Positions 27,013 through 42,628 of a stretch of DNA of 64,000 nt are shown here, piece by piece. The position numbers and the translations under genes are program-made. The DNA is from Nitrobacter sp. Nb-311A. GTDB lineage: Bacteria; Pseudomonadota; Alphaproteobacteria; Rhizobiales; Xanthobacteraceae. The notes under the pieces are model-generated. The model did not search any database and had not been told where the DNA came from. It was given only the letters and a program-made list of their open reading frames with translations. Location: assembly GCF_000152905.1 (NCBI RefSeq), contig NZ_CH672416.1, positions 31,398 to 95,397 of the forward strand, read 5' to 3'. The number at the start of each line of letters is the position of its first letter. Position 1 is the first letter of the stretch.

Positions 27013-27396
27013 ACCTCTGGTTCGGAAGCAGATTGCGTTGGATCGCGCACGCTTTCGTCACTCGCGTTCCCGAATTGGGGTTGCAAATGCCACGAGCCAC
27101 GGCAAGGTTGCGGAAACCAGTGAAGTGAATTTGAGATTCGCGACCCTCTGGCGGCGCGCCCCGGGCGCGAATGTCAAATTCAAAACTCCACTAGCAACTT
27201 GTGGTCGTTCGATTCTAGCATCCGCAAGACGTTTCGCTGAAACAGGATGCGAATGTTGGAAAACGGACCGCCAGAGCCTTTCCGCTTCCGATGGAATCGG
27301 AAGCGAGGCTCCATGATTTTGATCTGACACGTTTTCTTCGCGCGGACCGGGGTCCACTTCGCTCGAAAACGCTCTAGGAATGGTTCGCTCCATCGA
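27013..27396. other. Intergenic region map-radC
   Basis: No gene is supported. The distal third is a complete module B repeat (27273-27376) ending just before the radC start; the proximal part shows no structure I can name. Confidence 0.6.
27273..27376 (+). repeat. Dispersed intergenic repeat, full module B
   Basis: Reads AGAGCCTTTCCGCTTCCGAT, an inverted repeat CGCTTCCGAT/ATCGGAAGCG, then TGATTTTGATCTGACACG, TTTTCTTCGCGCGGACC and CCACTTCGCTCGAAAACGCT. This is the most complete copy in the window and ends 20 bases before radC. Confidence 0.8.
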
Positions 27397-28107
27397 ATGC
27401 CCGCCAACGCCGACAACCCCGCAGGATTTGCCGAAGCGCCACACTATCACGGCCATCGCGAACGACTGCGCGAGCGCTTCCGCGATGCCGGGCCGGACGC
27501 ACTCAGCGATTACGAACTGCTCGAAATGGTGCTGTTTCGCGCGTTGCCCCGTCGCGACGTCAAACCGCTGGCCAAGTCCCTGATCGGCAGGTTCGGATCA
27601 TTCGCCGAGGTGGTTCATGCGCCCGACGCGCGGCTCCGCGAGATCAGCGGGCTCGGCGAGGCCGCGATCATCGAGATCAAGCTGATCGCGGCGAGCGCCA
27701 GCCGCGTGGCGAAGGGACAGTTGAAACAGCGGACGATGCTGTCGTCATGGACCGCCGTGATCGACTATTGCTGGACCTCGATGGCGTTCGCCGACAAGGA
27801 ACAGTTCCGCATCCTGTTCCTCGACAAGCGCAACCAGTTGATCGCCGATGAGGTGCAGCAAGTCGGCACCGTCGATCACACGCCGGTCTATCCGCGCGAA
27901 GTCGTCAAGCGCGCGCTCGAACTATCGGCAACCGCGATCATCATGGTCCACAACCACCCTTCCGGCGATCCGACGCCATCGCAAGCCGACATCCAGATGA
28001 CCAGATCGATTATCGACATTTCATCGCCGCTCGGAATCTCCGTGCATGACCACATCATTGTCGGCAAGAACGGCCACGCGAGTCTGAAAGGGCTGCGGCT
28101 GATCTAA
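27397..28107 (+). CDS. radC: RadC family JAB domain protein
   Basis: Protein of 236 residues with an N-terminal helix-hairpin-helix part ([33 protein letters not shown]) and the C-terminal JAB/MPN metalloprotease-like domain with [16 protein letters not shown], the intact JAMM zinc motif. Its role in repair is unproven. The last 143 bases are repeated exactly at 42433-42575, which marks this gene as the insertion site of a genomic island. The gene as it stands is full length, with the 3' end possibly supplied by the island. Confidence 0.95.
27964..28106 (+). repeat. Left 143-bp direct repeat (attL-like) in radC
   Basis: From GGCGATCCGACG to GCGGCTGATCTA, identical base for base to 42433-42575. 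Before it the two copies differ at three of 14 positions; after it they differ completely. This is the pattern of recombination within a shared attachment segment. Confidence 0.85.
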
Positions 28108-28223
28108 CGCGATTAGGACACACCACTTGTGGGATGAAGTAAAGCCGGTTCAGAACACGGGAGAGTTCTAGCGTAGAAAAGCGTGCACATAGGCGGGGTG
28201 GCTTTGCGCCTCCGATTGTCAGA

Positions 28224-28583
28224 TTACAGTTGCGCTGTCTGTAGGGCGCAGACTGTGGTGCTATCGATGCTGTAGTGCCTGCTGTCCGCCATGATCTCGG
28301 CAAGCGTTACTGCCACGGTTTCCTAGACCCCGGCTTCACTCCATCGCCGGAACCGGCGGTAGATGGTGTTCCAACTGCCGAATTTTGGCGAAATGTCTCG
28401 CCATGGCACTCCGCATCGAAGCCGCCAGAGGATGCTGTTGATGATTGAGCAGTTCTGTTCTGGCGGTCTGCCGCGACCGCGGTTCTCAGGCTCGATCGGC
28501 AATAAGTCCTTCAGAACGCGCCATTCTGCTTCGGTGAGATCACCCCGGCTCCAGCCTGCCTCCAAAAAGCAGCCTTGAATCAA
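28224..28583 (-). pseudogene. IS5-family transposase remnant (IS427-like)
   Basis: The N-terminal part reads LTEAEWRVLKDLLPIEPENR, GRPPEQNCSIINSILWRLR and CGVPWRDISPKFGSWNTIYR, typical of the first half of IS427-group transposases. A TAG at about 28326 stands where the family has Trp (SEAGV-stop-ETVA), and the same frame continues with EIMADSRHYSIDSTTV before a TAA at 28224-28226 where homology ends. It therefore has a nonsense mutation and a 3' truncation. IS66 begins 11 bases before its start. Confidence 0.8.
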
Positions 28584-28631
28584 TCTCTCCCAACGTAAGC
28601 CTCCGGTGAGGACTGCGGCCTCCTCGGATCT

Positions 28632-29249
28632 TCAGCGTGGCTGACTGCGGCTTTTCTCGAAGCCGGCCTTGCCGAGAGCGCGGCGTCTGGCGAGTTTTTT
28701 CATCCGGGTTTGGATTTCGTCTTCAGCAGCATGTGCCGGATCGAACGGACGGCTGTGCCAGCGTTTGAGTTCGCGATGCTCCTCGTGCCTGGGATCGGCG
28801 ATGGCGTTGAGGAACAATTCGAAGCCGGGGATGCCGCCGACGTCTTCGGGTGGGGCGTGGCCGGCACCGTCGATGTAACGGGGATACTCGACAGAGGGAT
28901 CGGCGTCGGCGATTGCCTCGATCGTGATCGTGTGCCGCCAGTCGTCGCCGAAGTCGTAGGTGTAGGCCAATTGCGTGATGCTGCGATCGACCAGCGTTCC
29001 GAGCCGTATGGTCTTTGCCGAGTAGGTTTTGTCGCGCAGGCTATCCCATTCGGGATCAGGGATGGCGTATCGCTTTCCGTCGGCTCGGAACTCGAACAGG
29101 TGATAGTCGTCGAACAGCATGGCCGCCTGGATGACATCGTGCAAGGCCTTGAGCGTTGCCGTTAGCGGCACCTCGACGCGCCGCCAGATGGCGGGCTGCC
29201 AGTCATCGAGCTGGATCCTGATGCGGGCGATGCGATCGGCGTGGCTCAT
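28632..29249 (-). CDS. Plasmid pRiA4b ORF-3 family protein, IS66 passenger
   Basis: Protein of 205 residues, MSHADRIARIRIQLDDWQPAIWRRVEV, with YDFGDDWRHTITIE and GGIPGFELFLNAI, the hallmarks of the pRiA4b ORF-3 family (PF07929), whose function is unknown. The ATG overlaps the tnpC stop, and the gene lies inside the element ends, so it is a passenger of the IS66 element. It looks intact although tnpC is broken. Confidence 0.85.
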   Translation of the reverse strand: MSHADRIARIRIQLDDWQPAIWRRVEVPLTATLKALHDVIQAAMLFDDYHLFEFRADGKRYAIPDPEWDSLRDKTYSAKTIRLGTLVDRSITQLAYTYDFGDDWRHTITIEAIADADPSVEYPRYIDGAGHAPPEDVGGIPGFELFLNAIADPRHEEHRELKRWHSRPFDPAHAAEDEIQTRMKKLARRRALGKAGFEKSRSQPR

Positions 29250-30285
29250 GCCGCCAATCTTGCAGATTGCGCCTTCCAGTTCCACGGCAAGAGTTCCGCC
29301 AGCCGGCTCTGCGGCGTGTCGGCGATGCGGGCGAGCACGTCGGCGAGCCAGGCCTGCGGATCGACATTATTGAGCTTCGCGGTGCCGACCAGCGTGAGCG
29401 GCCGGCGGTGATGTCCCGCCGAAGGGCCGGTCGTCCGCGGACATAGACCCAGGCGCGGCCGGTGTCGGTCTTGCCCTTCGCCAGGATCGGCACCGTGGTG
29501 TCGTCGCCGTGAAGGCGCTCTGCCGAGAGCAACACATAGGCCTCGATCAGCGCATGCAGCGGACGCAGCACCGCCGCGCATGTGCCGACCTGATCGGCCA
29601 GCGTCGACAGGCCGAGATCAATGCCCTCGCGGGCATAACGCTCGCTCTGCCGGTTCAGCGGCTGATGCTGGCCGAACTTCTCGAACAGGATCATCGCCAG
29701 CAGGTTCGGGCCGGCGAAGCCGCGAGGCGTCACATGGAATGGCGCCGGCGGCTGGGTGATCGTCTCGCACTGGCGGCACGAGAACTTCTCACGCACCGTC
29801 TGGATGACCTTCCATTGGCGCGGGATCAGCTCCAGCGTCTCGGTCACGTCCTCGCCCAGCTTCGACAGCCTGGTCGAGCCGCAGCAGGGACAACTCTCGG
29901 GCGCGGCGATCACGACGCGTTCGCGCGGCAGATGCTCCGGGAACGGCTTGCGCGACGGGCGCCGGCGCTCGAACGAGCGAACCGTCGTGGCACGCGACGC
30001 GTGCTCCGCCGCCAGTTCGTCCTCGGTTGCGTTCGCCTCCAGATCTTCGAGCTGAAGCTCCATCTGTTCGAGCAGTCTGGCCTTGCGTTCCGAACGGCTG
30101 CCGTAGAACTCGCGCCGGAGCTTCTCGATCTCCAGCTTCAGCCGGGCAATCAGGGCCTCGGTCCCGGAGCTGACCGCCGCCGCGCGGGCGGCAGGCGCTT
30201 CGGCCTCGACGCGTGCGGCGCGCTCCGCGAGGATCATCGCATGCGCGGCGGCGAGGTCGGAAGGGAGCGATTCAGCGTCGGGCAT
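29246..30285 (-). pseudogene. tnpC: IS66 transposase TnpC, internally deleted
   Basis: The N-terminal part is normal (coiled-coil LKLEIEKLRREFYGSRSERK, zinc motif PESCPCCGSTRLSKLGEDV, FSCRQCETITQPPAPFHV, DDTTVPILAKGKTDTGRAWV). After VYVR an extra G near 29439 shifts the frame, and the sequence jumps from the DDRPFGG region straight to TLVGTAKLNNVDPQAWLAD near the C-terminus. About 170 residues with the later DDE residues are missing, so it is inactive. The end PWNWKAQSARLAA is intact in a different frame. Confidence 0.88.
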
Positions 30286-30592
30286 ACGGCGATGGAATCA
30301 TATCCACCGCCATGTGCAAGGCCAAAGTCCTCAGCCGGTCGCCGTCGGCCGGCGATGGCCAGATGAAGCGGCCGCGCTCGAGCTTCTTTGAGAACAGACA
30401 GGCGCCCTGGCCGTCGTGCCACAGAACCTTGATCAGATCGCCGCGGCGGCCGCGGAAGACGAACAGGTGGCCGCTATGCGGATCGCGCCTCAGCATCTCC
30501 TGCACCACCAGGGCCAGGCCCGGGAAGCCCTTCCTCATGTCGGTGTGGCCGGTCGCCAGCCACACCCGCACGCCGCTCGGAACCGGAATCAT
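30272..30592 (-). CDS. tnpB: IS66 accessory protein TnpB
   Basis: Protein of 106 residues with VRVWLATGHTDMRKGFPGLA, HLFVFRGRRGDLIKVLWHDG and GACLFSKKLERGRFIWPSP, the IS66 Orf2 core. The C-terminus after PSPADG differs from most relatives and may be altered. It overlaps tnpA and tnpC by a few bases, so the three genes are translationally coupled. Confidence 0.88.
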   Translation of the reverse strand: MIPVPSGVRVWLATGHTDMRKGFPGLALVVQEMLRRDPHSGHLFVFRGRRGDLIKVLWHDGQGACLFSKKLERGRFIWPSPADGDRLRTLALHMAVDMIPSPYARR

Positions 30593-30993
30593 CGGGACCC
30601 GAGCGCATCCAGCACGCGCCGCAGCGCCTCGGCATCCACGTCGCGATCGACGCGGACACGGCGCCCGCCACCGAGATCGATCTCGATCATGCCGCTCTTG
30701 CGGCGACGTCGGCCGGCAGACGCCGATGGTCCCGGCGCCTCAACGGCGGGCGGGATGGCAGCAGCAGGAACGATCTCCATCGGGACCAATCCCGACGAAC
30801 CGACATCGACCCGATCGCACAGGTCCTTGCGCCACCGGAACAGCTGGCTGACCTGAATGCCCGCCGATCGCGCGACTCCCGACACCGACACACCAGGCTC
30901 AAGCGACGCCGCGACCAGGCGCTCCTTCTCCTCACGCGACCAGCGCCGGCGTCTCTCGATCGACGTGATCACCTCCACCCGCGGCATCGTCAT
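30589..30993 (-). CDS. tnpA: IS66 accessory protein TnpA
   Basis: Protein of 134 residues with a helix-turn-helix head (RRRWSREEKERLVAASLEPG, VSVSGVARSAGIQVSQLFRW) typical of IS66 TnpA, and a basic tail. A palindrome TCCTAGG/CCTAGGA lies at 31002-31021, just upstream of its start, a possible operator. Confidence 0.85.
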   Translation of the reverse strand: MTMPRVEVITSIERRRRWSREEKERLVAASLEPGVSVSGVARSAGIQVSQLFRWRKDLCDRVDVGSSGLVPMEIVPAAAIPPAVEAPGPSASAGRRRRKSGMIEIDLGGGRRVRVDRDVDAEALRRVLDALGSR

Positions 30994-31063
30994 AGGGCTA
31001 CTCCTAGGATTATCCCTAGGACTTCCGACGTTCGTCCTCAGCCCGCAAGGCGGCCTTCACCGG

Positions 31064-32607
31064 CTTTCAATTACCCACATCTCGTACGTAGGATTTGCAC
31101 CTGTTGAATTGTCTGTGATTCTGTCTGTGACGCCGATTCGCGGAGGCGTCACAGATGAGCGGAGACACGGGAGCCGGTGCTGCAGGCTGGCATGACGATG
31201 AAGTCGTTTCGGCAGGGCTGCCGGACAAGCGACTTGCGCGCCGATTTGGCCGCCTGCTTGATCAGATGTCGGCGGCACCCGGCCAACCCGTCCCGGCCGC
31301 GTGCGGCGACTGGGCGGCGACAAAGGCGGCCTATCGCTTCTTCGACAACCCACGTGTTACCGAGCACGGGATGCTGGCCGGCCATTTTGCCGCGACCGCC
31401 ATGCGCTGCGCGGCGAGCGAAGGACCAATCCTCATTCTGCAGGGTACCACCGAGTTCATCTACAGCCGTGCGCAGCCGGGTAAGATCGGCTTCACCAAGA
31501 CCGTCAACGCCGGACGTTATAAGGCGGGTCAGCCCAACGTGGTGACCTTGTGTGGGGTGCTGATGCATTCGAGCCTGGCTGTAACCCTCGGTGGCACGCC
31601 GCTCGGGCTGACGGCAGCGAAGTTCTGGACACGCACGAAGTTCAAGGGGACCTGGACGCTCAAGCGGCACGTGAACCCCACGCGCGTGCCGATCGAGACG
31701 AAGGAAAGCTATCGCTGGCTGGAGAACCTGCGCCAGTCGATGGCGCTCGTGGGCACGCCGGAGCGCTGCGTGCATGTGGCCGACCGCGAGAGCGACATCT
31801 ACGAGCTCTTTTGCCTGGCGCAGGATCTTGGCACGCGCTTTCTGGTGCGAGTGCAGACCAATCGGTTGGCCGCCGCGCCCGCCGACGCAGAGCCACGGGA
31901 TGGAGCTCATCGGGTCTTTGCCCAGCTCTCGGCTGCGCCTTGGGCGGGACGCCATTACGTCGCGATCGGACAGGATGAGACGGCGTGCGTGCACGTGAAG
32001 TTCGCCGCCATCCAAACCCTGCCGCCCGTCGGCAAGCAGAAGCGATACAGTCCTCAGCTTCTCACCTACATCCAAGCCCTTGAGATCGATCCGCCGGCGA
32101 ACCGTCCGCCGATCGACTGGAAGCTGGTGACCAATCTGCCGGTCGGAGATTTCGCCATCGCCATCGAGAAGCTCGAATGGTACGCCTTGCGCTGGAAAGC
32201 GGAGGTGTTTCACAAGGTACTGAAGTCTGGCTGTCGCGCGGAAGAGGCGAGGCTTGAGACCGCCGAGCGGCTGGCCAAGTTCCTCGCCCTCATCGCGATG
32301 GTCAGCTGGCGCATCTTCTTCCTCACCATGTCCGCACGAGCAAAGCCCGAGGTTGCGCCGGAGACAGTCCTCACCCCGACCGAAATCGCGACGCTTGATG
32401 CCATCGACGCGGCGCGGGCCAAGCCGCGCATCTTGCGCAAGACCCTCGCCACCTATTTGCTCCAGATCGCCATGCTCGGCGGCTATCTCGCACGCAACCA
32501 CGATCCGCCGCCAGGAAACATGGTCGTCTGGCGAGGCCTAACACGCCTCAATGACATCGTCTTCGGCCTCTCAATCGGAACTCGTCGACGATATGGGTAA
32601 TTGAAAG
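31064..32607 (+). mobile_element. IS4-family (IS50-like) insertion sequence, complete
   Basis: The ends are inverted repeats: CTTTCAATTACCCACAT at 31064 and its near complement ATATGGGTAATTGAAAG ending at 32607. The element is flanked by a perfect 9-bp duplication CTTCACCGG (31055-31063 and 32608-32616), the length expected for this family. The length is 1544 bp. It lies within the right end of the IS66 element, so it arrived later. Confidence 0.92.
31155..32600 (+). CDS. IS4-family transposase (Tn5/IS50 type)
   Basis: Transposase of 481 residues related to Tn5 transposase. The N-terminal domain DKRLARRFGRLLDQM and GDWAATKAAYRFFDNPRV binds the ends. DDE residues are seen in ILQGTTEF, CVHVADRESDIYELF and the YREK signature WYALRWKAEVFHKVLKSG. 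The stop codon lies inside the right inverted repeat. No defect is visible, so it may be active. Confidence 0.92.
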   Translation: MSGDTGAGAAGWHDDEVVSAGLPDKRLARRFGRLLDQMSAAPGQPVPAACGDWAATKAAYRFFDNPRVTEHGMLAGHFAATAMRCAASEGPILILQGTTEFIYSRAQPGKIGFTKTVNAGRYKAGQPNVVTLCGVLMHSSLAVTLGGTPLGLTAAKFWTRTKFKGTWTLKRHVNPTRVPIETKESYRWLENLRQSMALVGTPERCVHVADRESDIYELFCLAQDLGTRFLVRVQTNRLAAAPADAEPRDGAHRVFAQLSAAPWAGRHYVAIGQDETACVHVKFAAIQTLPPVGKQKRYSPQLLTYIQALEIDPPANRPPIDWKLVTNLPVGDFAIAIEKLEWYALRWKAEVFHKVLKSGCRAEEARLETAERLAKFLALIAMVSWRIFFLTMSARAKPEVAPETVLTPTEIATLDAIDAARAKPRILRKTLATYLLQIAMLGGYLARNHDPPPGNMVVWRGLTRLNDIVFGLSIGTRRRYG

Positions 32608-32692
32608 CTTCACCGGAGGGGTACCTCCCAACGGCGCCAACCGCGTTCCGAGTCGATGTCGCTTATTCTGCCAAAACAGCCCGGTTAATCGA

Positions 32693-32866
32693 ATGCTGAA
32701 TGAAAATGAGGGTGCCAGGTGGTTGCCGACCATGATTAAGACCGTGCTGGGCGTGATGCTCGTCGTCGGCCCATTAGCTCTTGCACTGCTGCGCAGACAC
32801 ATTCGCATTGAGGTCGCGAAAGGGCCTGACGCCCTCTATCGCAAACGCATCGCGGCTAATCGGTAA
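32693..32866 (+). CDS. Small hypothetical protein with one membrane helix
   Basis: Possible protein of 57 residues, MLNENEGARWLPTMIKTVLG with VMLVVGPLALALLRRHIR as a membrane helix and a basic C-terminus. An inner ATG at 32732 has AGGTGG upstream and would give 44 residues. No family was recognised. It lies between the IS66 element and the end of the Avs-like gene. Confidence 0.35.
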   Translation: MLNENEGARWLPTMIKTVLGVMLVVGPLALALLRRHIRIEVAKGPDALYRKRIAANR

Positions 32867-33169
32867 CAACAAAGCGCGCGCCATATTGGCGAACTATTTG
32901 TCCACGCCGCCTAGTAAGTCGTGTTTGAGGATTTCTTCGCGTACCAGAAACGAATCTCATCCCCAGCCGGTCTGGTTCCTACATATACAGCTTTCACACC
33001 TGAACTGTCGCCGAAGCGACGGTCTTTGTACTTGCTCAACGTAACGTGGAACACGAGCTGACGATCGATTAGAGGTAATGCCCGGTCCAGCCAGTCTTGC
33101 GACGCCCATAAAATCTCACCATTTTCGTTTCGATGACTGCCCCGGTTGTCGTCCGGGTCAGGTATCCAT

Positions 33170-33178
33170 CCCCCCCCC
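33170..33178. repeat. C9 homopolymer (G9 in the coding strand) in the Avs-like gene
   Basis: Nine C in a row. In the coding strand the frame before it reads SQVWGG and the natural continuation GGGWIPDPDDNRGSHRNENG lies in another frame. Ten or seven G would join them. Confidence 0.8.
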
Positions 33179-35326
33179 ACACCTGACTCCGCATAGCTAG
33201 TTCGTTGTGAGAGGTTATCCACTCCCGAAAATCCTTGTCCGGTATGAGCCCAAATGCCTTGAGAAGTTTGACGCCAAGACGTGGTCGCGACGCCACGCCG
33301 TCAGTCGCGATTTTCTCGCGTGAATCTACCCCAATGCTGTAATTTTCCAAAACCCACACAACTGGCTCAAAGGGCGATGCCTGTCTGTATGGGTCGTCAA
33401 AGCCGTCATGAAGAAACAGCGGTAGCCAGAGATCGTGGTCCGCTCTTCTAACGAATTTCTGGCAAAGTCCCACGATCCCACGGGGTTTTCCTAACGCCGT
33501 TTCAATACGAACATAAACTCCGTCCGGGGACTTCCACTGTCCATAAATCGGCAACATCGCGGATTCCGCAATATTCAAAATTCCTAAGCTCTCGAAAATC
33601 ACTGGAGTCGGAATTAGTGATTCGACATTCTTGACTCGTGGTCCCAACAGACTCCTTCCGCAAACCTCAGGCTCTTGATCTTTGTGATCGCTGAGCCAAG
33701 AACCATCTTTAAACGTAACGTCATAGTCGTTGAGCCACAGCTCAAAGGGCGACGCAGGATCTTCATCATAGCTTTGACGCGCCACCGGATGCGATTGCCG
33801 CAACGTAGTTGCTGCGCTTAGCAATGCGTGCTTTTGAACATGCTCACGATAATATTCGTATCTGTCAGTTCGTTCTTTTCGATAACGATCATGCCCAGGA
33901 AATGCATCCATATTTGTAGCGCTCGGCCAGATCCGCTGAATTTCATGAGCGATAGCATCGACGCATTGACCGTCTGAAATATGAAATACTCTCGCAAGAT
34001 GCGAAATCTCTGACTTGTTGAATTCATAATCGAAACTGAAACCAGATTTGGCAGGAACGTGCTTCGGCCAAGAGCCTTTAACAACTGCGATTCCCTTTGG
34101 ATCGACTTCAACTTCTTGCGCTAAATTTGCGATGTCGGCTGCCTCGCAGCCAATATTTCGCAAGCATCGCAGGATGTGTCGCTTATTAAGGATGTGAACG
34201 TCATTTCGCGCAGCCAGTTGGAAAAGTCGAGGTTTCAACGGGGCCAGCTTTGCCCCGTGAATCAATGCGGCACGGGCCAGCCCCATCAGAAGCCATTGCT
34301 GTGAATTCTGAAATGAGAGGTTATAGCTTTCTGTTTTGAGTGCCGGCACCTCTCTGCGATCGAACTGCGCGAGAAGTGCATTCAAATCGTCGATTAAACC
34401 CAATGAAACAAAGAGCGGCAATGCGCGCGCAATGCTCCACTTTATGTAAGCATCGTCATCCCCTAAAAGATGCCAGATTATTCCGACGAGAAGCTCTCGC
34501 TCATCTGAAATTTTGAAATCGGGCTTGTACGCACCTTCTCCAATCTGATCGGCCAAGCCTGCGGCCGGCCCAGACAGAAAGTTTTCGAGGGCATCGCGCG
34601 AAGCGCTATGCGACGTTTGGTGAGACAGTACCGTGGCAAGCTGCAACCACTGTTCACCATTCAATTCCAATCGTTCAGTCGAAATTGTATCTAGGACGTG
34701 GTTCAAGACGAAGCTTTCGTCACCACAAAGATCGCTGAGTTGCTTTATCTCGCGGCTCACACTGCCGTAAGAAATGCTGAAGAGTTCAGATCCTTTCGAT
34801 TTGAATAAGTGTGAAACAACGTTTTTTTGCTCTGCCGCAATATATGCTGATGAACCAGACCATTCCGAAACACAATCTTGAATGTGATCGATAGCTTGGT
34901 CGAACGAGACGTTATTGGCCTCAGCCAAAGCAAGCAAGTGATCGAGCCGTTTCGCGTAGGGGCAAGCTGCACGAATTGTAGAGAAGAAGTCCCGTCTCAC
35001 ATAAAATGGAAGTGACTTAACGGCATCTATTTCGTTGAGCGCTTCGTCAATAGACGCCGCTGATCCTGGGTCACACTTAGAAATCAGAGCCTTGACAAAA
35101 GCGTCTGGGTCTTGTTCTTTTTTCTTGCTTTCAATGCTCGCAGGCGAACTCGGTCCTGATGACGAGCGCGAATTATACTCGTGCCTTTTCCGTTCTGCTT
35201 CCTCAAGTAATTGCTTTGCCGTGCTGACATCGCCGTCGCCCACGACGGCTGGATTTTTTTCGGCAACATTCAATATGCCTTGCCAGACAGAGGACCAGCC
35301 GCCATCCGAGTGCTCGGCAATTAATT

Positions 35327-35358
35327 TTCCAAATACAGCCTCTTCCAAATACAGCCTC
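35327..35358. repeat. 16-bp tandem duplication breaking the Avs-like gene
   Basis: TTCCAAATACAGCCTC occurs twice in direct succession (35327-35342, 35343-35358). Removing one copy joins EQRTIFEAVFG to KLIAEHSDGGWSSVWQ in one frame. Sixteen is not a multiple of three, hence the frameshift. Confidence 0.9.
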
Positions 35359-38300
35359 GAATATTGTCCTTTGCTCACCGACGTTGCGCGCTTGTGGAAG
35401 AATCGATGATAGTCCGTCACCAACGCTCCACTCGTGCCAGCCATGGTCTTTGCAAATGCCCAACAGCACCGCAGCGCGTAACGGCGAAAGATGCTTCTCG
35501 GCAGAAAGATATGAAGCGAGCTGAGGCAGTCCGAGAGAATAGCTCGCAACGTCTTCGTCATTCCACCGTATAAGCTTGGTTGCGGCTGTCGTTCCTATGG
35601 ATTTAGCGCAAGCTATGCCGAAAAGATTCCAGCCAAACTTATGTGAATCATGAGCAAAAATAGTCTGGCATAGGTTCATCAGCCTATGCCCCAACTCGGG
35701 CCGGATGCACCCGCCAGGTTGGCCCGCTGCGTAATGCAGTATCGCGTAAATCAAGTCGTAATCGCCGCTGCCGAGCTTATCCAGTTCCGCCAATCCGTTG
35801 CGATAATATAGGCGCGCTTCGGGAACGCTCATTTCCAGCAATGCCTCGGCCAAAGAAGCGTAATCGTCGCCACGCTGATCGGTCTGATCGTCTTTGCGAA
35901 TCTCATCGACCATCGATTGCGCAAACGCACCGGCGCGAGAGTGAAGATGACCTTTTGCTGCTAGCAACGAGAGCACATACGCTTTCTCGCTCAGCAAAAA
36001 ACCTGGCCGAGAAATCACATCAATAACCGCGACCGCATCGCTGTCTGAAATAGCCGACGCGTGTTGAAGAAGCAGTCTTGCAAATCCAAGCCCCACGGTC
36101 TTAGCAAGCATCTTTTCAGGCTCTTCGAACCCGCGTGGCACCGTCTTTGATACAAAGGAGGCCCAATTACCGAGAAACGCGCTCACGCCCTTATCAGCGA
36201 CGCGAGCACACATGCTGGCCTGAATTGGCTCAATAATTTTCAGAACCGTCTCGATCCCGACGGCAATTTCCTGACATTCGCGGCTATCAAAGCGGCCTTC
36301 GAGCTGGCCGCAAATGCTGCAAGCTCGGCCAAGACGCTCAATCCCGTTGCGCACTCATATTGCCGAGCAAGTTTGACCGCTTGCCGCGCGACCGGAATTG
36401 CTAATCCCCGGCCCCATTGATGCAAATTTCCATCAACAGGTTTAAAATCTTTCTGAACGATCTTCAGAAATACAATGGAAGCAAAGTCGTCGTGGGCTGG
36501 ACCGGTCCTCTCGTGAGGAAGTTCGCGCTCATCTCTCTCTTTGCGCGCGTTCCAGTTTATCCAGTCGATCGCACGGCCACAGTGAATTTCAGCCTCTTCC
36601 ATCTCATTCGAGAAAGCATGGGCGATTGTTAGCCGTGCATCACGAGCGCCGCGCCACCCGGATCGGTCGCTGAATAAGCGTCGATAGGCGTCCCGATCGC
36701 CCAGAGTCGCTGCCAATGCGGGCGACTTGCGTATGAACTCATCGCCACGACTGTTTGCCGCGACCACTTGAGCCAAACGCATGGTGATGCCGAGCGCATG
36801 GTTGAGATCGCCGTCTTTAACCGCCAATTTAAACGCGGCATTGAATCGTGCTAGTGTCAAACGCCGCCGTCCGAAGTCCGACTGAATTGAAGTCGGAAAC
36901 TGCGTCGAATCCGCCAAAGCATAAGCCCGAGCACCGTCCTTGATTGCTACCAAGAACCCAGGCAGAGCCTCCGCTGCATATTGCGACGATACCTGTGCGT
37001 CATGGAGACGCTGCGCTATGGCTTGTTGAGAAGCCGTGTCGTTAGAATACGTATCACGGACATAAGTTTCTGTTGGTTCATCGCGGAAAATCGCGCCGTG
37101 CGTGGGAACGATCTCGAGCATCGGAGCCAGATCAGAAGCCGCGCTCACCACTTGCGATATCAACCACCCTAAGGCGGTTGCCAGTTCGTCCAAAGGCATG
37201 GGCGGCGGCAATAAAGAAATAGCGGAGAAGAACTCCCGAACATCCGAATCTAGCCACCCAGCGATTCGAAGATCGGAGAAGATCTTGTTGCACTTCTCCG
37301 AGATGAGTTTATCAACGGTGATTTCGGCTTTGTCTGGATTTCCCGCTACGTTCGTACCCCAAGTATCAACCAAATAAGCCAACACCCGCGCGTTGCCGCT
37401 AGATCGTGAAAACGCGGTCGCAAATTCAGCGCTCGTGATATTTTCGCGGCGTGAAGCCAGATATAATTCTGCTTCTTTCTGCGTAAACGGACGAAGCGGA
37501 AACGGTACAACTGTTGATCGATCGACAACGCGAGCCATTCGATGTGTACGGGCCGTCAGAACAAGCTTTACTCCCTCGACGCTGTTTTCGCTGAGTGACG
37601 CCAGAAGAAGCTTTGGAAATGAATCGTCCTTACGGTCGTCAGCTTCGATTTGCGCATTGTCTGCCGCATCGATGATTATCATTATGCCCTTTCGCTTCGA
37701 TTGGACTTTCAGCGTCTCAACGGCCTGAGTAAGGCGGCGGCGTAGTGCATTTATCAACGCAAGGGATTCTGCGTCGCCAGGAAGCAACGGGTCGCACAGC
37801 CCTCTTGAAGCCAACTCGTTGGCGATTTGTACGTATCCCACTCGCGGTAAATGACGCTCTTGGTCCTGTGATCGATAAGCGCCCCCACCAAAGCAATCGA
37901 ACACGACGACCTCGTACGCTTCCGATTGAGCGGCAGCGAGACTGCCAATAAAAACTGTTTTACCCACTCCCCCGTCGGCATGAATGAAGACCGGCTCTTT
38001 TTTAGTTTTGATCAAATTTATCGCATCGTCCAACTGTTCGCGTAGAACAATTTCTCCTACGTCAATGAATCGAGTATCTGCCGGGAATAGATCTTCCTCT
38101 TCGCGCCCCAATGCGACGAGTACGTCCTCTCGTTTTATGAGGTTGTTGTTCTTGTTTTTTAGACCAGCCTTCTCGCGGACGACTTCGACTACCTCAAAAA
38201 GCCGAGACTTGCTGCGCAGCTCATTTCCGGCAGACCAGTCAGCCATGGTGCGTCTCAAGTTACTATTCAAAAGTGGAAGCGTTTCCTCCGAAGCGCGAAA

Positions 38301-39116
38301 TTCGCACCGACTGAATAGCCGTTGTGCATCTACCTTCTTCTTTGCGCAGAGACCTTTTAAATAGTCATGTTGAGTTAGAGCCTCGCCTTTGGCAGGCGTT
38401 ACACCCGATTTCAGACCGGCTATCGCTGCCCATAGATCCGGCGAGAACTCTGCGTTCGTGACAAACGAAAAAGTCAACTTCTTGTCGACATCAGCCGAAG
38501 ATATCGTCTTTTCATATCCCACAATCGTGTCGGCAAACTTTTCAATTGTCTTACGAAGATATGAGGCCGTCACCAAACCGGCTATTGTTCTGTATTTGAA
38601 TTGCGCGGTCTGTACAGCTTCCGAGGTGGCAAAGTTGTCGCCATCTCCGTAGTAGAGAACGAGATCTGCCACGTCTTCGGCTTCTGCGCCGGGATTGGCA
38701 GTTTCGGTCTTCGATAGTCCTTCAATAGCAATCGCTTTTAAGCGGTCACTTGGGAAGACCAGTTGCATGGCTCGCCGTGCTGCCCAGCGCTCATGAAACG
38801 TGTGTCCCGCGCGGGAGGCGCTCACGATATCTACGGTTGGATTTTTCGGAGCCTTTTTAGCCATGATCAGAGCATTAAAGAGTTTTGGAACGATCCCTAG
38901 CGCAAGTCCGGGGCTTGCCCCATCATCGTTCGCCCGGGTGTAGTAAACTGTTTCACTATTATTTGGCCGTAGAAGAATACGTGTCCACTCCTCTGCTCAC
39001 CTCATCCTAACTGAAAGTCATCCAGCGCTATCGCGGCTAGATAATTCCTCTGGCTTGCTACAACCAAAACGGCAATGCCGGCTCTGACTAAGCTGGTCGC
39101 ACATGAACCTTTAGCA

Positions 39117-40424
39117 TCACGCGTCCTCCAACCTGCGCAGACGAGCCTTGACGCCATTACTGACGCTGTCAGCGACTTCGGCAGGAAATCCTTTCGGGAG
39201 CGACGCGGTGACCTGCTCGACCGCTGCCGGTGTCTGTGTGCGCAGCTCATCGAAGATCGCGGTCACGAGTCCCGCGCCAATCCCCGCCTTGGCGGCGGTC
39301 TGGACAAAATGGCGAGGCATCACGCCACCGACGACGTAGTGGCGGCTGTCCCCGACGGCCATGGCCAGCTTCATCTTGTTACGTTTGATCTGGCCTGTGT
39401 CGAGGCTAGGCTGCGCCGAGATCACATCGTAGAGCGGTGTCATGCGGAAGCGACCTCCGGGAGAGAGAAAAACGCTGAAATTCTTGGCGTGACCATCCGT
39501 GGCACCGAGCAGCCAGAAGGCAATTACGGCTCTCAGAAACGTTGTTTGATCTGCCTTCGGCTGGTCGCTTCCCTTGAGCAGATTGAGAATAGCCGGAATG
39601 CCGGGGCCGCCATCGGATTCGTATTTCAAGGATGGCGGCACGGACAAGGCCTGGCAGCAATCCTCCTGCGGCAAACGCAGGAGACGGTTGTCGCTGGTCC
39701 AACGGCGATCGAACCGCTCGACCACGAGCACGTGGTTACCCTCAAACTCTTCAATCGCAACGGCGGCGCTCGGAAGTCCAAGAGCAGCCGCCAGCTTAAG
39801 GCAGAAGAACTCGTTTTCAACGCTGTAGGATAGATCGATGCCGTTCGGCAGTCGGCCAATCTGCGGTTTGAGGATGTGCGTCGTGGCCGTAGTCGCCAGC
39901 GGCTTGTACCAACGCCCGTTCCAGAACAGCAGTGCGGTCTTTTCCTGGGCGCCGGCGATCGATATCCGAAAGTCCTCATCCTCGCCAAGTCCAAGGGGAG
40001 CCGATGCAAGGTCACCGAGAAGCCGGGCGATTCCCTTGTCGTCGATAGGTTTGCCGCCAACAGCGCCGGCGGCGCCGGGTTCGACGCCGTCCGGCAGGAA
40101 TTGCAACGCGCCGACGCAATCCCGTCCGACAGCGGCAAGCAGGTCGTAAGCGTCGATCCCCTGAGCGTGGACCCGCTCCGCCATGCGGCGACGGATGGGC
40201 GTGCTGTCAGGCAGGAGATTGTCGAAAACGGCGATGACAGGCGCACCGATATAACGGTCCTCACGCAAAGGCAGAGAGAGCGACACGGGCAGCGCATGCT
40301 CCCAGGCAAGCCAGGACGGATCGTACTGAAAATCGATTGCGCCGCTGGATTGCCTATTCAGGCGTCCGACGAGACGGCCGTTCAGGAAGACATTGAGCGA
40401 GATGTGCCGCCGCGGGCGGGCCAT
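39117..40424 (-). CDS. hipA: HipA family serine/threonine kinase toxin
   Basis: Protein of 435 residues, close to E. coli HipA (440). SISIAGAQEK-like loop (ISIAGAQEKTALLFW) matches the phosphate-binding segment; HILKPQ carries the ATP-binding lysine; DGHAKNFSVFL is the catalytic loop and PLYDVISA the metal-binding Asp. The N-terminal subdomain has LPVSLSLPL and FDNLLPDS. In E. coli HipA phosphorylates glutamyl-tRNA synthetase and induces dormancy; the target here is unknown. All key residues are intact. Its start overlaps the hipB stop (TGATG). Confidence 0.93.
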   Translation of the reverse strand: MARPRRHISLNVFLNGRLVGRLNRQSSGAIDFQYDPSWLAWEHALPVSLSLPLREDRYIGAPVIAVFDNLLPDSTPIRRRMAERVHAQGIDAYDLLAAVGRDCVGALQFLPDGVEPGAAGAVGGKPIDDKGIARLLGDLASAPLGLGEDEDFRISIAGAQEKTALLFWNGRWYKPLATTATTHILKPQIGRLPNGIDLSYSVENEFFCLKLAAALGLPSAAVAIEEFEGNHVLVVERFDRRWTSDNRLLRLPQEDCCQALSVPPSLKYESDGGPGIPAILNLLKGSDQPKADQTTFLRAVIAFWLLGATDGHAKNFSVFLSPGGRFRMTPLYDVISAQPSLDTGQIKRNKMKLAMAVGDSRHYVVGGVMPRHFVQTAAKAGIGAGLVTAIFDELRTQTPAAVEQVTASLPKGFPAEVADSVSNGVKARLRRLEDA

Positions 40425-40675
40425 CAGAAGATGTCCTCGATCTCGGCCGGCTTTGCCTTCGTCCTGGGACGGATAACGAACTCTAGGTCGAGCGCAGCGA
40501 GAATGTCACAAAGCGTTCCGAGCTGAGTTCCGAGCGCGCCACTCTCGACGGCGGAGATGGTTGCCTGTCGTAGCTTCGTCCGGTCCCCGACGTTGGTCTG
40601 ATTCAGGCCGTGCTTGCGACGTTGCCGGCGGATGGCATCTCCGATTTGCTTAGGCGTTCGGACAATCTGGTCCAC
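40424..40675 (-). CDS. hipB: HipB family antitoxin, XRE-type regulator
   Basis: Protein of 83 residues with a helix-turn-helix: IGDAIRRQRRKHGLNQTNVG, DRTKLRQATISAVESGALG, TQLGTLCDILAALDLEFVIR. HipB neutralises HipA and represses the operon. It lies directly upstream of hipA, overlapping by one base, and four operator-like palindromes lie 24-120 bases before its start. Confidence 0.92.
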   Translation of the reverse strand: MDQIVRTPKQIGDAIRRQRRKHGLNQTNVGDRTKLRQATISAVESGALGTQLGTLCDILAALDLEFVIRPRTKAKPAEIEDIF

Positions 40676-40698
40676 GGCGCACCTCTCTGGGCACGCTA

Positions 40699-40795
40699 TA
40701 TACGCTTAAGAGTGTAAATGTCAATATACGCTTCAGAGAATGAATATCTATATACGTCACAACGTATAATGTAGATAAATACGCCTTAGCGTATA
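40699..40795 (-). promoter_or_regulatory. Four phased operator sites of hipBA
   Basis: Sites of the form TATACG-N6-CGTATA start at 40699, 40725, 40751 and 40778, spaced 26, 26 and 27 bases. Site 3 (40751-40768) is a perfect TATACG/CGTATA; site 4 (40778-40795) has one mismatch; sites 1 and 2 keep the left half and a weaker right half. E. coli HipB also uses four palindromic operators, so autoregulation is likely. Confidence 0.82.
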
Positions 40796-40925
40796 ATCCA
40801 CTACGCTCGCACCGGTTCGCGAGGTTCTCAATCCAGTACTCAGCGCGACTCAATCACTTCTACCTGCCCCGAACCGGAGCACGGTATCGCGCGGGAGAAT
40901 GGTTCCTCGCCAGCGAAGAGCGCGA

Positions 40926-41282
40926 TCAGTCAGAAGCGGTCCAACTCCAGCCTTCAGCGGCCATCGCTTCACCGATCCACTGCGCCACCTCGCCCGGAGG
41001 TCCGCTGCAATACCACAAGATGGAGTCACCCTCTTCACGTACCCAGGCGACAAGCCGGGCCGCTTCTCGAAAAGAGTAGGAAACAACGGCCCCATTCGAT
41101 GCATGCCATCGACCGTTGGCCAACGCCGACCAGAGATCGACGCCACATGCACCATCGGCTCTCACCTGTTCTCCAACGGCTCGATCAATAGCTGCTTCAA
41201 ATTCCTTGATCGGTCGGGTGGAACGCTGGCTTGGAACGCCCGCAAAATCGCTTTTATCGAAGAAAGGGAACGGTTGCCTCAT
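40926..41282 (-). CDS. Conserved-looking hypothetical protein
   Basis: Protein of about 118 residues, MRQPFPFFDKSDFAGVPSQR, with GVDLWSALANGRWHASNGAV, YSFREAARLVAWVREEGDSI and GEVAQWIGEAMAAEGWSW. The Trp-rich, acidic composition looks like a real folded protein rather than a shadow, and the first ATG at 41282 fits. An upstream start at 41324 is possible. No family was recognised; it is a cargo gene of the island. Confidence 0.55.
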   Translation of the reverse strand: MRQPFPFFDKSDFAGVPSQRSTRPIKEFEAAIDRAVGEQVRADGACGVDLWSALANGRWHASNGAVVSYSFREAARLVAWVREEGDSILWYCSGPPGEVAQWIGEAMAAEGWSWTASD

Positions 41283-41443
41283 GGCTCTCGTTTCTTTAGC
41301 TCTGCTGAAGAGGTGATGAAACAACTAAATTGAAGCGTGAGTGGCGGCGTCGACTCTTCGCCAACAGGCAGTTCTTTTCAGTGAAATCGTAAAACCACCT
41401 GGTCGCACGCCATTCCGGCCCGCGAAACAAAGGAGTTATCGAT

Positions 41444-41797
41444 ATGCAGCCACCCGTCATTCCGCCGCGCTATCTTCGTACCCACGAGGCCGCAATGTTT
41501 CTTGGACTGTCGCCGCGAACATTTGAGAAGCATCGCACTTATGGAACAGGCCCGATCTACCGCAAGCTCGGCGGTCGAGTCGTCTATGCGATCGTCGATC
41601 TGCAACAATGGGCGGATTCGGGGACAGTGAGTTCAACATCCGATCCGAACAGCAAAACGGTCCGACCGGCCTCGTCACAGCATCGGATAACTCGCCGGAA
41701 GGCCCAAGTACCGATCGGGCTCGCGGACACTCCGTCGAGAAGCATCCGCGATCTCGAGTCCAATGTCGGATTTCCTGCTAGCCAGTGTGACGGCTGA
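41444..41797 (+). CDS. Helix-turn-helix protein, AlpA/excisionase-like
   Basis: Protein of 117 residues. RYLRTHEAAMFLGLSPRTFEKHRTYGTGPIYRKLGGRVVYAIVDLQQW is a MerR-type winged helix as in AlpA and Xis proteins; the tail is less conserved. Rhizobial integrative elements often carry such a gene near their ends. AAAGGAG lies seven bases before the ATG. Confidence 0.8.
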   Translation: MQPPVIPPRYLRTHEAAMFLGLSPRTFEKHRTYGTGPIYRKLGGRVVYAIVDLQQWADSGTVSSTSDPNSKTVRPASSQHRITRRKAQVPIGLADTPSRSIRDLESNVGFPASQCDG

Positions 41798-41853
41798 ACT
41801 GCCAAGCGCCAAGCGCAGCGAGGGTCAACCCTGTTCATCCGCCTCATACACGT

Positions 41854-41876
41854 TAGTGCAACGGGCCGTTGCACTA
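41854..41876. promoter_or_regulatory. Palindromic operator candidate before the second HTH gene
   Basis: AGTGCAACGG and CCGTTGCACT flank a single G, with one more T/A pair outside (11-bp arms). It lies 22 bases before the GTG start of the excisionase-like gene and may bind its repressor or a LuxR-type activator. Confidence 0.6.
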
Positions 41877-41898
41877 TTACTAGAGCTATGGAGAAACT

Positions 41899-42141
41899 GT
41901 GTCCGTTCCTGCCTATCTGACCCTCGAAGAGGTCGTCGAGCGTTATCGCAACCAAGTTAGCGAGGGTACGCTACGCAACTGGCGATCGAAGAGAATTGGT
42001 CCGTCATTCGTCAAAATCGGCAAAGCGATCCTATACCCGATCGAGGAGTTGGAGCGATGGGATCGTTCAAACCTGATTTCCTGTAAGCGCATATCAACTG
42101 CGTCCTTCGGCGCCAACGACACCGAGGGCGCAATGGACTGA
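41899..42141 (+). CDS. Small HTH protein, excisionase/RdfS-like
   Basis: Protein of 80 residues, PAYLTLEEVVERYRNQVSEG, then TLRNWRSKRIGPSFVKIGKA and ILYPIEELERWDRSN, the MerR-like fold of recombination directionality factors. It starts with GTG, with GGAG seven bases upstream. It lies 290 bases from the right island end, where an excisionase gene would be expected. No integrase accompanies it. Confidence 0.75.
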   Translation: MSVPAYLTLEEVVERYRNQVSEGTLRNWRSKRIGPSFVKIGKAILYPIEELERWDRSNLISCKRISTASFGANDTEGAMD

Positions 42142-42414
42142 ATGGACAGAGCTGGCCTTCGATTGACGATGGGTGCGGTTTGCCATCGTCGATCAAGGTC
42201 AGCTCCTGTTTTGATCCGTGCTCGCCTAAAATGGGATAGACCGATGTGAAGTTCGTGCAGCAGCTTGCGAATGCGGGCGCTTGAGGGGTTACGCGGGTTG
42301 CACCGGGATTGCCGCGAATTTGCGCGAGTTACAGACCCCAGATACCGGCACCATCTCATCTTTGACGTTAATTATCTTATTGAAATATATATCTTTTCAA
42401 AGTTTCACGGGTTG
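42142..42414. other. Right arm of the island, no gene
   Basis: About 270 bases between the excisionase-like gene and the radC fragment. No gene is supported; the AT-rich part 42360-42410 may be an arm-binding site of the lost integrase. Confidence 0.5.
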
Positions 42415-42576
42415 ATGCATAACTACCCCTCTGGCGATCCGACGCCATCGCAAGCCGACATCCAGATGACCAGATCGATTATCGACATTTCATCGCCGCT
42501 CGGAATCTCCGTGCATGACCACATCATTGTCGGCAAGAACGGCCACGCGAGTCTGAAAGGGCTGCGGCTGATCTAG
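42415..42576 (+). pseudogene. 3' fragment of radC at the right island end
   Basis: Reads [18 protein letters not shown] to the normal radC end. Only the last 53 codons are present. The first zinc-motif segment is HNYPSGD instead of HNHPSGD. It is what remains of the original radC end after insertion, plus a few island-side bases. Confidence 0.88.
42433..42575 (+). repeat. Right 143-bp direct repeat (attR-like)
   Basis: Identical to 27964-28106. After it the chromosomal flank resumes with a module B repeat and the convergent Inh-like gene. Confidence 0.85.
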
Positions 42577-42628
42577 ATCAAATCATGGAGCCCCGCATCT
42601 GATCCAATCGGAAGCGGAAAGGCTCTAA
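42577..42628 (-). repeat. Dispersed repeat, module B fragment
   Basis: GATCAAATCATGGAGCCCCG, CATCTGATCCAATCGGAAGC and GGAAAGGCTCT: the palindromic end of module B in reverse orientation. It directly follows the island. Confidence 0.65.

Follow-up and report, generated by a model that had tools for sequence, protein, structure and literature searches.

The island lies between an intact radC gene and a second radC 3′ end

The stretch analysed here is a 64-kb window within contig C11 of the genome of Nitrobacter sp. Nb-311A (4.1 Mb in 44 contigs; G000 below, where G-numbers denote genomes and L-numbers fetched loci), and our subject is an island at the radC gene that holds approximately 14.5 kb of extra genes: pieces of insertion sequences (ISs), a broken Avs3a-like NTPase gene, hipBA, and two helix–turn–helix (HTH) genes. 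At its left border lies an intact radC open reading frame (ORF) of 236 aa (27397–28107, + strand; taken from the ORF list, and 94%–97% identical to its counterparts in eight further members of the genus), the end of which, at 27964–28106 (+), recurs in a repeat comparison at 42433–42575 (+) as a displaced 3′ fragment of radC, followed by the flank known behind radC in empty sites. The two copies are identical over 143 bp, with 0 bp of further identity on either side, and form the sole exact direct repeat of at least 40 bp in the window; the longest such repeat in 20 mononucleotide shuffles of the window measured 14–18 bp. The original prediction, made from the letters of this stretch, had described an island of accessory genes (IS elements, an Avs-like NTPase, hipBA, and HTH proteins) flanked by exact 143-bp direct repeats, with the radC frame whole on the left, and our comparisons confirm each of these points, the Avs gene proving to be spread over three frames.

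When the 20 bases upstream are included, the copies are 96% alike over 163 bp, and the right copy thus starts with a diverged piece of radC; the motif region reads HNYPS at the right copy versus HNHPS at the left. Core-like sequence is present at both ends of the island: on the left, the probable attachment core, CACAACCACCC (27949–27959, +), lies inside the intact radC gene at codons H185-N186-H187-P188 and fits the consensus CAYAAYCAYCC described below, and the right copy, CATAACTACCC (42418–42428, +), is one base off that consensus. The G+C content is 57% within the island versus 61%–62% outside it.

Empty and occupied sites in related genomes

The empty-site comparison that the original prediction had proposed was run on a genus set of nine genomes, consisting of G000 and eight others (G001–G008). 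Five of the eight have empty sites, one carries the same island, one carries unrelated DNA, and one could not be judged. The window flanks, joined in silico, align unbroken in G008 and G007, and the right flank resumes behind radC after approximately 150 bp in G005, 574 bp in G002, and 489 bp in G001. Left out of the empty-site count were G003, where 4.6 kb of other DNA without a radC repeat follows radC, and G004, where only 118 bp remain between radC and the contig end. The island thus reads as foreign DNA in radC, and the empty sites speak against an ancestral island.

In G006, the genome sharing the island, contig C56 holds the left part together with an intact radC, and contig C6 the right part with the displaced 3′ end; both contigs end in what is apparently one IS flanked by CTAG. 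Excluding an IS66-type block, identity between G000 and G006 is 95%–100% in each 150-bp bin between 28.2 and 37.8 kb, against approximately 89% for the chromosome, and from 37.8 to 42.4 kb it is mostly 80%–97%, with a 98%–99% patch at 39.6–40.05 kb. By these values the island has recombined recently, its left two thirds (28107–37800) having been exchanged among species of this genus. The two radC 3′ ends, compared over approximately 141 bp, are 100% identical in G000 and 77% identical in G006, and the right 3′ ends of the two genomes are 94% alike; as the same island exists in G006 with such dissimilar ends, exact identity of the ends is not required for the arrangement.

A family of integrases sits behind radC genes cut at a short probable core

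To place the island among related elements, we considered 149 genomes of the taxonomic family (including seven members of the genus, with G001 and G004 not among them), scoring the presence of the integrase described here at E 1e-60. A radC match was found in 141 of the 149, and among the matches listed, ten genomes have a radC match ending at residue 189–193. One of these, in G042, stops at a contig end and was not counted as cut; the tail, read in eight of the other nine, is HNHPT or a near form, and a stop follows within approximately 25 codons where the contig continues. G030 and G057 have an integrase gene just downstream of the cut radC, and G047 has one where a contig starts; the three encoded proteins are 77%–91% identical.

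A scan of genome contigs gave 184 relatives of this integrase, 80 of which were fetched as loci. In 70 of the 80, a radC match ends 113–221 bp upstream of the integrase on the same strand (60 of these end at residue 188–190, and ten alignments extend to 193–223). Among the other ten loci, the upstream sequence is shorter than 340 bp in four; in five, sequence other than radC precedes the core (the HTH gene in L113); and one (L085) has no core. In 74 of the 80 loci, the sequence CAYAAYCAYCC occurs no more than 420 bp upstream of the integrase. What these elements share is a stretch of approximately 11 bp in the His-Asn-His-Pro (HNHP) codons of RadC, just upstream of the 143 bp, and the suggestion that the 143 bp themselves are the attachment segment did not hold up, given also the 77% identity of the G006 ends; they form the radC 3′ end downstream of the likely core and are probably not the core itself. 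The position of the island, in radC at the HNHP codons, is that of the integrase-defined family, with a right core one base off, and the island may, as originally proposed, have come there by site-specific integration. A whole radC is yet not the rule in this family, the gene being cut off in those 70 loci.

At E 1e-60, the integrase is present in 10 of the 149 genomes. Six have it 131–195 bp behind radC; in G047 and G076 the integrase stretch begins at the edge of a contig, and G076 carries an intact radC at another place; G109 has the integrase without a core there; and in G028 (L191, 1568) non-radC sequence precedes the core and integrase, with radC intact elsewhere in the genome, an arrangement that may represent an excised or tandem form. 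A row of HTH gene, core, and integrase in Rhizobium calliandrae (L113, 9453–10001) looks like joined element ends. On a complete replicon of Niveispirillum cyanobacteriorum, the cut radC and integrase lie at 523–525 kb, and the HTH homologue and radC 3′ end at 444 kb.

Two further loci are recorded here for their own interest. A radC-family integrase on a plasmid of Paracoccus pantotrophus (L200, 1808–5732) lies beside Qat anti-phage genes, and L052 (G140) has, in a row, three stretches sharing an 11-letter protein motif (1001, 4994, and 9577), an intact radC being one of them and the rest lying behind it, which would fit a tandem of two elements or remnants.

The right end carries a probable excision factor gene of the family

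Beside the right end lies a gene for a small HTH protein (41899–42141, +; PF12728 at 31.9 bits, above the cut-off, and PF07825 Exc at 19.6 bits, below it). Some match to this protein (E 0.001 or better) occurs in 41 of the 149 genomes, and a strong homologue (E 3.8e-21 or better) in 13, G000 included. Ten of the 13, counting that of the window (274 bp), lie 80–274 bp upstream of a radC 3′ match, and the core is seen in nine of these ten if the one-base variant of the window is accepted; in G056, a second, weaker HTH copy and a radC 3′ end are approximately 240 bp apart. The integrase is present in six of the 13 genomes (G009, G031, G047, G056, G057, and G150) and absent from seven. By this conserved placement, the protein is a probable excision factor (recombination directionality factor, RDF) of the radC element family. 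G045 has a similar radC island of approximately 16 kb, also lacking an integrase and ending in the same gene, but there radC is cut off. Of the two excisionase-like genes noted originally, this one stands; the other, encoding an HTH_17 protein (41444–41797, +), has only a PF12728 match of 24.6 bits, below the cut-off of 27, in a comparison confined to Pfam and NCBIfam.

Integrase and conjugation genes are missing

No integrase could be assigned to the island, as the original prediction had held. The window contains no Pfam Phage_integrase match, 20 such matches lying elsewhere in G000, and no integrase of the radC family was found at E 1e-60 in the G000 genome or in the seven genus members of the 149-genome set. 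A search for remnants within the island gave a best family-integrase match of E 3.6 and a best match of E 0.13 for an unrelated integrase (42014–42073), and the same search in G006 gave one match, E 0.024, at a contig end inside an IS. Three of the 20 G000 integrases, one on C7 and two on C11, were aligned to the family: only that on C7 matched over the catalytic half, at 27%–29% identity. Separately, two additional integrase genes lie at most 10 kb to the left of the window (L057, G000:C11:16000-31500).

A TrbE/VirB4-type gene lies between the integrase and the HTH gene in G057, G009, and G031. TrbE/VirB4 (PF03135) has no match anywhere in G000; other conjugation genes were not searched genome-wide. 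As assessed by integrases and TrbE/VirB4, the island is without integration and transfer genes, as in a cis-mobilizable element (CIME).

The left end resembles chromosomal sequence of other genera

The island begins on the left with an arm of 116 bp after radC (28108–28223) that resembles the sequence behind radC in genomes of two other genera. In a search of 391 genomes (weak matches not listed), similar post-radC sequence was found, besides G000 and G006, in five: G117, G182, G279, and in part G048 and G133. Beyond the arm, G117 remains collinear with one side of both G048 and G133, so that in G117 the arm is ordinary chromosome. An intact radC with the arm flank is also present in G133, where other DNA separates it from a further radC 3′ end; the two are 99.5% alike over 184 bp, and a similar layout therefore exists in another genus. 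At E 1e-60, the family integrase was found neither in G133 nor in G048.

Within the genus, the left 3′ end of G006 is 80%–81% identical to those of G005, G007, and G008, and its right 3′ end 87%–90%. These comparisons provide moderate evidence that the left end is foreign and was overwritten in G000 by the native right end. Since the two ends of G006 are only 77% alike, the exact 143-bp repeat of G000 is best read as the product of later gene conversion.

Origin of the island

We regard it as quite probable that the island is a remnant of the radC element family, by one or the other order of events. That it is specifically a decayed, integrase-less, CIME-like member that arrived by way of a radC-carrying circle is a narrower proposal, to which we give an even chance. 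In this proposal, the family would insert by its tyrosine recombinase into radC at the approximately 11-bp core in the HNHP codons, and an integrase-bearing member reads, in order, radC cut after HNHPT, integrase, a conjugation gene where present, HTH gene, core, and displaced radC 3′ end. The island retains the right end; the integrase-bearing left end is missing, and where it would be there is a whole radC 3′ end with approximately 115 bp like the post-radC chromosome of other genera, so that RadC is whole. The circle could have formed in another host through recombination of the element's right core with the core of an intact radC, and would then have entered radC here with an integrase supplied in trans; the left 3′ end in G000 would later have been overwritten by the native right one to give the exact 143 bp. 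So constituted, the island would now be immobile unless a radC integrative and conjugative element (ICE) arrives, and recombination between the 143-bp copies could remove it with radC left whole.

Several observations weigh against this account. The one-base departure of the right core from the consensus is one, and the core pattern is in part conserved simply because it encodes a RadC motif. At the right end, the radC fragment beside the HTH gene in G048 has no core, and no radC 3′ end adjoins the HTH gene in the stretch of G031 examined or in G047, where the contig ends. At the left end, radC is intact, whereas the integrase-bearing members show the HNHPT junction; a short arm-like match occurs away from radC in G138; and the start of the foreign stretch is not resolvable from the radC comparison. 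With four more distant alleles of the genus, the left 3′ end of G006 shares 82%–84% and the right 81%–85%; the best panel match of the left end, 86% (L020), falls outside the arm-sharing genera (80%–84%), so that no donor is shown; and the radC 3′ stretch is the most variable among native alleles too.

A possible, though clearly less favored, order of events has an ICE insert into and cut the radC of this lineage, with imported DNA later replacing the left half and its integrase by homologous recombination in radC and so repairing RadC; the origin would be the same family, and only the sequence of steps would differ. The integrase-bearing relatives do cut radC off, and the contrast between a left part 95%–100% identical to G006 and a remainder near the chromosomal level fits a recent left-half exchange. 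However, this order requires an exchange whose left end fell in radC near the core, when the foreign start is not resolved, and the search of seven genus genomes yielded no radC ICE with an integrase. We consider it unlikely that circular DNA with a radC 3′ fragment instead entered by a single homologous crossover, with no site-specific recombinase. Such an event would leave an intact gene at one border, a gene fragment at the opposite one, and a repeat equal to the shared length, and the 143 bp are exact; G133, too, has its intact radC and further 3′ end alike over 184 bp, with no family integrase at E 1e-60 there or in G048; but the right end of the island starts at the core of the integrase-bearing elements, the gene adjoining it is the same as in other genomes, and the ends in G006 are only 77% identical. 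It is scarcely credible that the radC 3′ end was duplicated locally, or that the arrangement is ancestral and the relatives lost it: although exact identity would fit a young duplication, five of eight relatives have empty sites and G006 shows this arrangement with ends that have diverged, which led us to reject both.

A broader reading, which we put forward only tentatively, is that integrase-less islands form a class that passes between genera with a complete radC 3′ end taken from an earlier host, and so lie in RadC motif codons yet spare RadC, and that the autonomous ICEs supplying the recombinase in trans cut it.

Relation to known elements and consequences for RadC

PMC8627217 places radC among the integration sites of Mesorhizobium ICEs without symbiosis genes and of integrative and mobilizable elements (IMEs), and gives tyrosine-recombinase genes in 73 of 79 elements; the likeness to our island is radC as the site, but those elements hold conjugation or relaxase genes and the island lacks an integrase. 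A CIME (PMC5704250) has lost its integration and transfer genes and kept its attachment ends. Unlike such an element, the island has as its left end an intact radC with a foreign-looking 3′ part and not the usual attL, and it keeps an excision-factor-like gene. Tn6188 of Listeria, which is Tn554-like, always inserts at one conserved radC position, which in Listeria lies between bp 540 and 541 (PMC3788773). Its insertion directly downstream of a conserved radC motif is comparable to that of the island; in contrast to the island, the Tn554-like transposons depend on a tnpABC system of Firmicutes and disrupt radC (PMC3788773). One might guess that the motif is the same HNHP. A known tyrosine-recombinase element in a radC gene has three recombinases and lies in a radC carried by an ICE, not in the chromosomal gene. 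The main text of PMC8407400 does not mention radC, and no description of the 11-bp core or of a radC-restoring integrase-less form was found in the literature searched, which is weak evidence of absence.

The H-x-H-x10-D sequence of RadC is its JAMM motif. Because the truncated radC genes lose the Asp of this motif, they should be without RadC function, and hosts of integrase-bearing members would be natural radC mutants, since radC is cut off in them. The island shows how an element may lose its integrase yet leave its target gene whole, and what began as an odd repeat becomes a testable case with an integrase family, a short core in conserved motif codons, and an excision-factor-like end gene.

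Cargo and decay of the island

Behind the left arm lies a fragment of an IS4/5-type transposase gene (DUF4096; 28323–28583, −; Pfam PF13340, 87 bits), followed by an IS66-type insertion (28595–32624) between 8-bp copies of CTCCCAAC (28587–32632 in all), which is absent from G006; it contains a PRiA4_ORF3 gene, IS66 genes, and an IS4/Tn5-type transposase gene at 31155–32600. An 8-bp target duplication is typical of IS66 elements. The Avs3a-like anti-phage NTPase gene (33069–38864, −) is broken into three reading frames (PADLOC Avs3a, E 4e-35, 2e-8, and 2e-107), whose pieces cover approximately positions 5–816, 1082–1290, and 1323–2012 of the 2090-position model; in this region, G006 has approximately 477 bp extra near 36,300 and an IS near 36,850 (window coordinates). 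Toward the right end follow a hipA-like toxin gene (39117–40424, −; TIGR03071, 91 bits, above the domain cut-off), a hipB-like antitoxin gene (40424–40675, −; NF007271, E 6e-10, below the cut-off), and an ORF of 132 aa (40926–41324, −) with no Pfam, PADLOC, or NCBIfam match.

A dispersed repeat also flanks radC and the island as inverted copies (27273–27319 and 42580–42626, 89% alike over 47 nt), and similar stretches occur at approximately 6.9, 22.5, 48.5, and 52.8 kb of the window.

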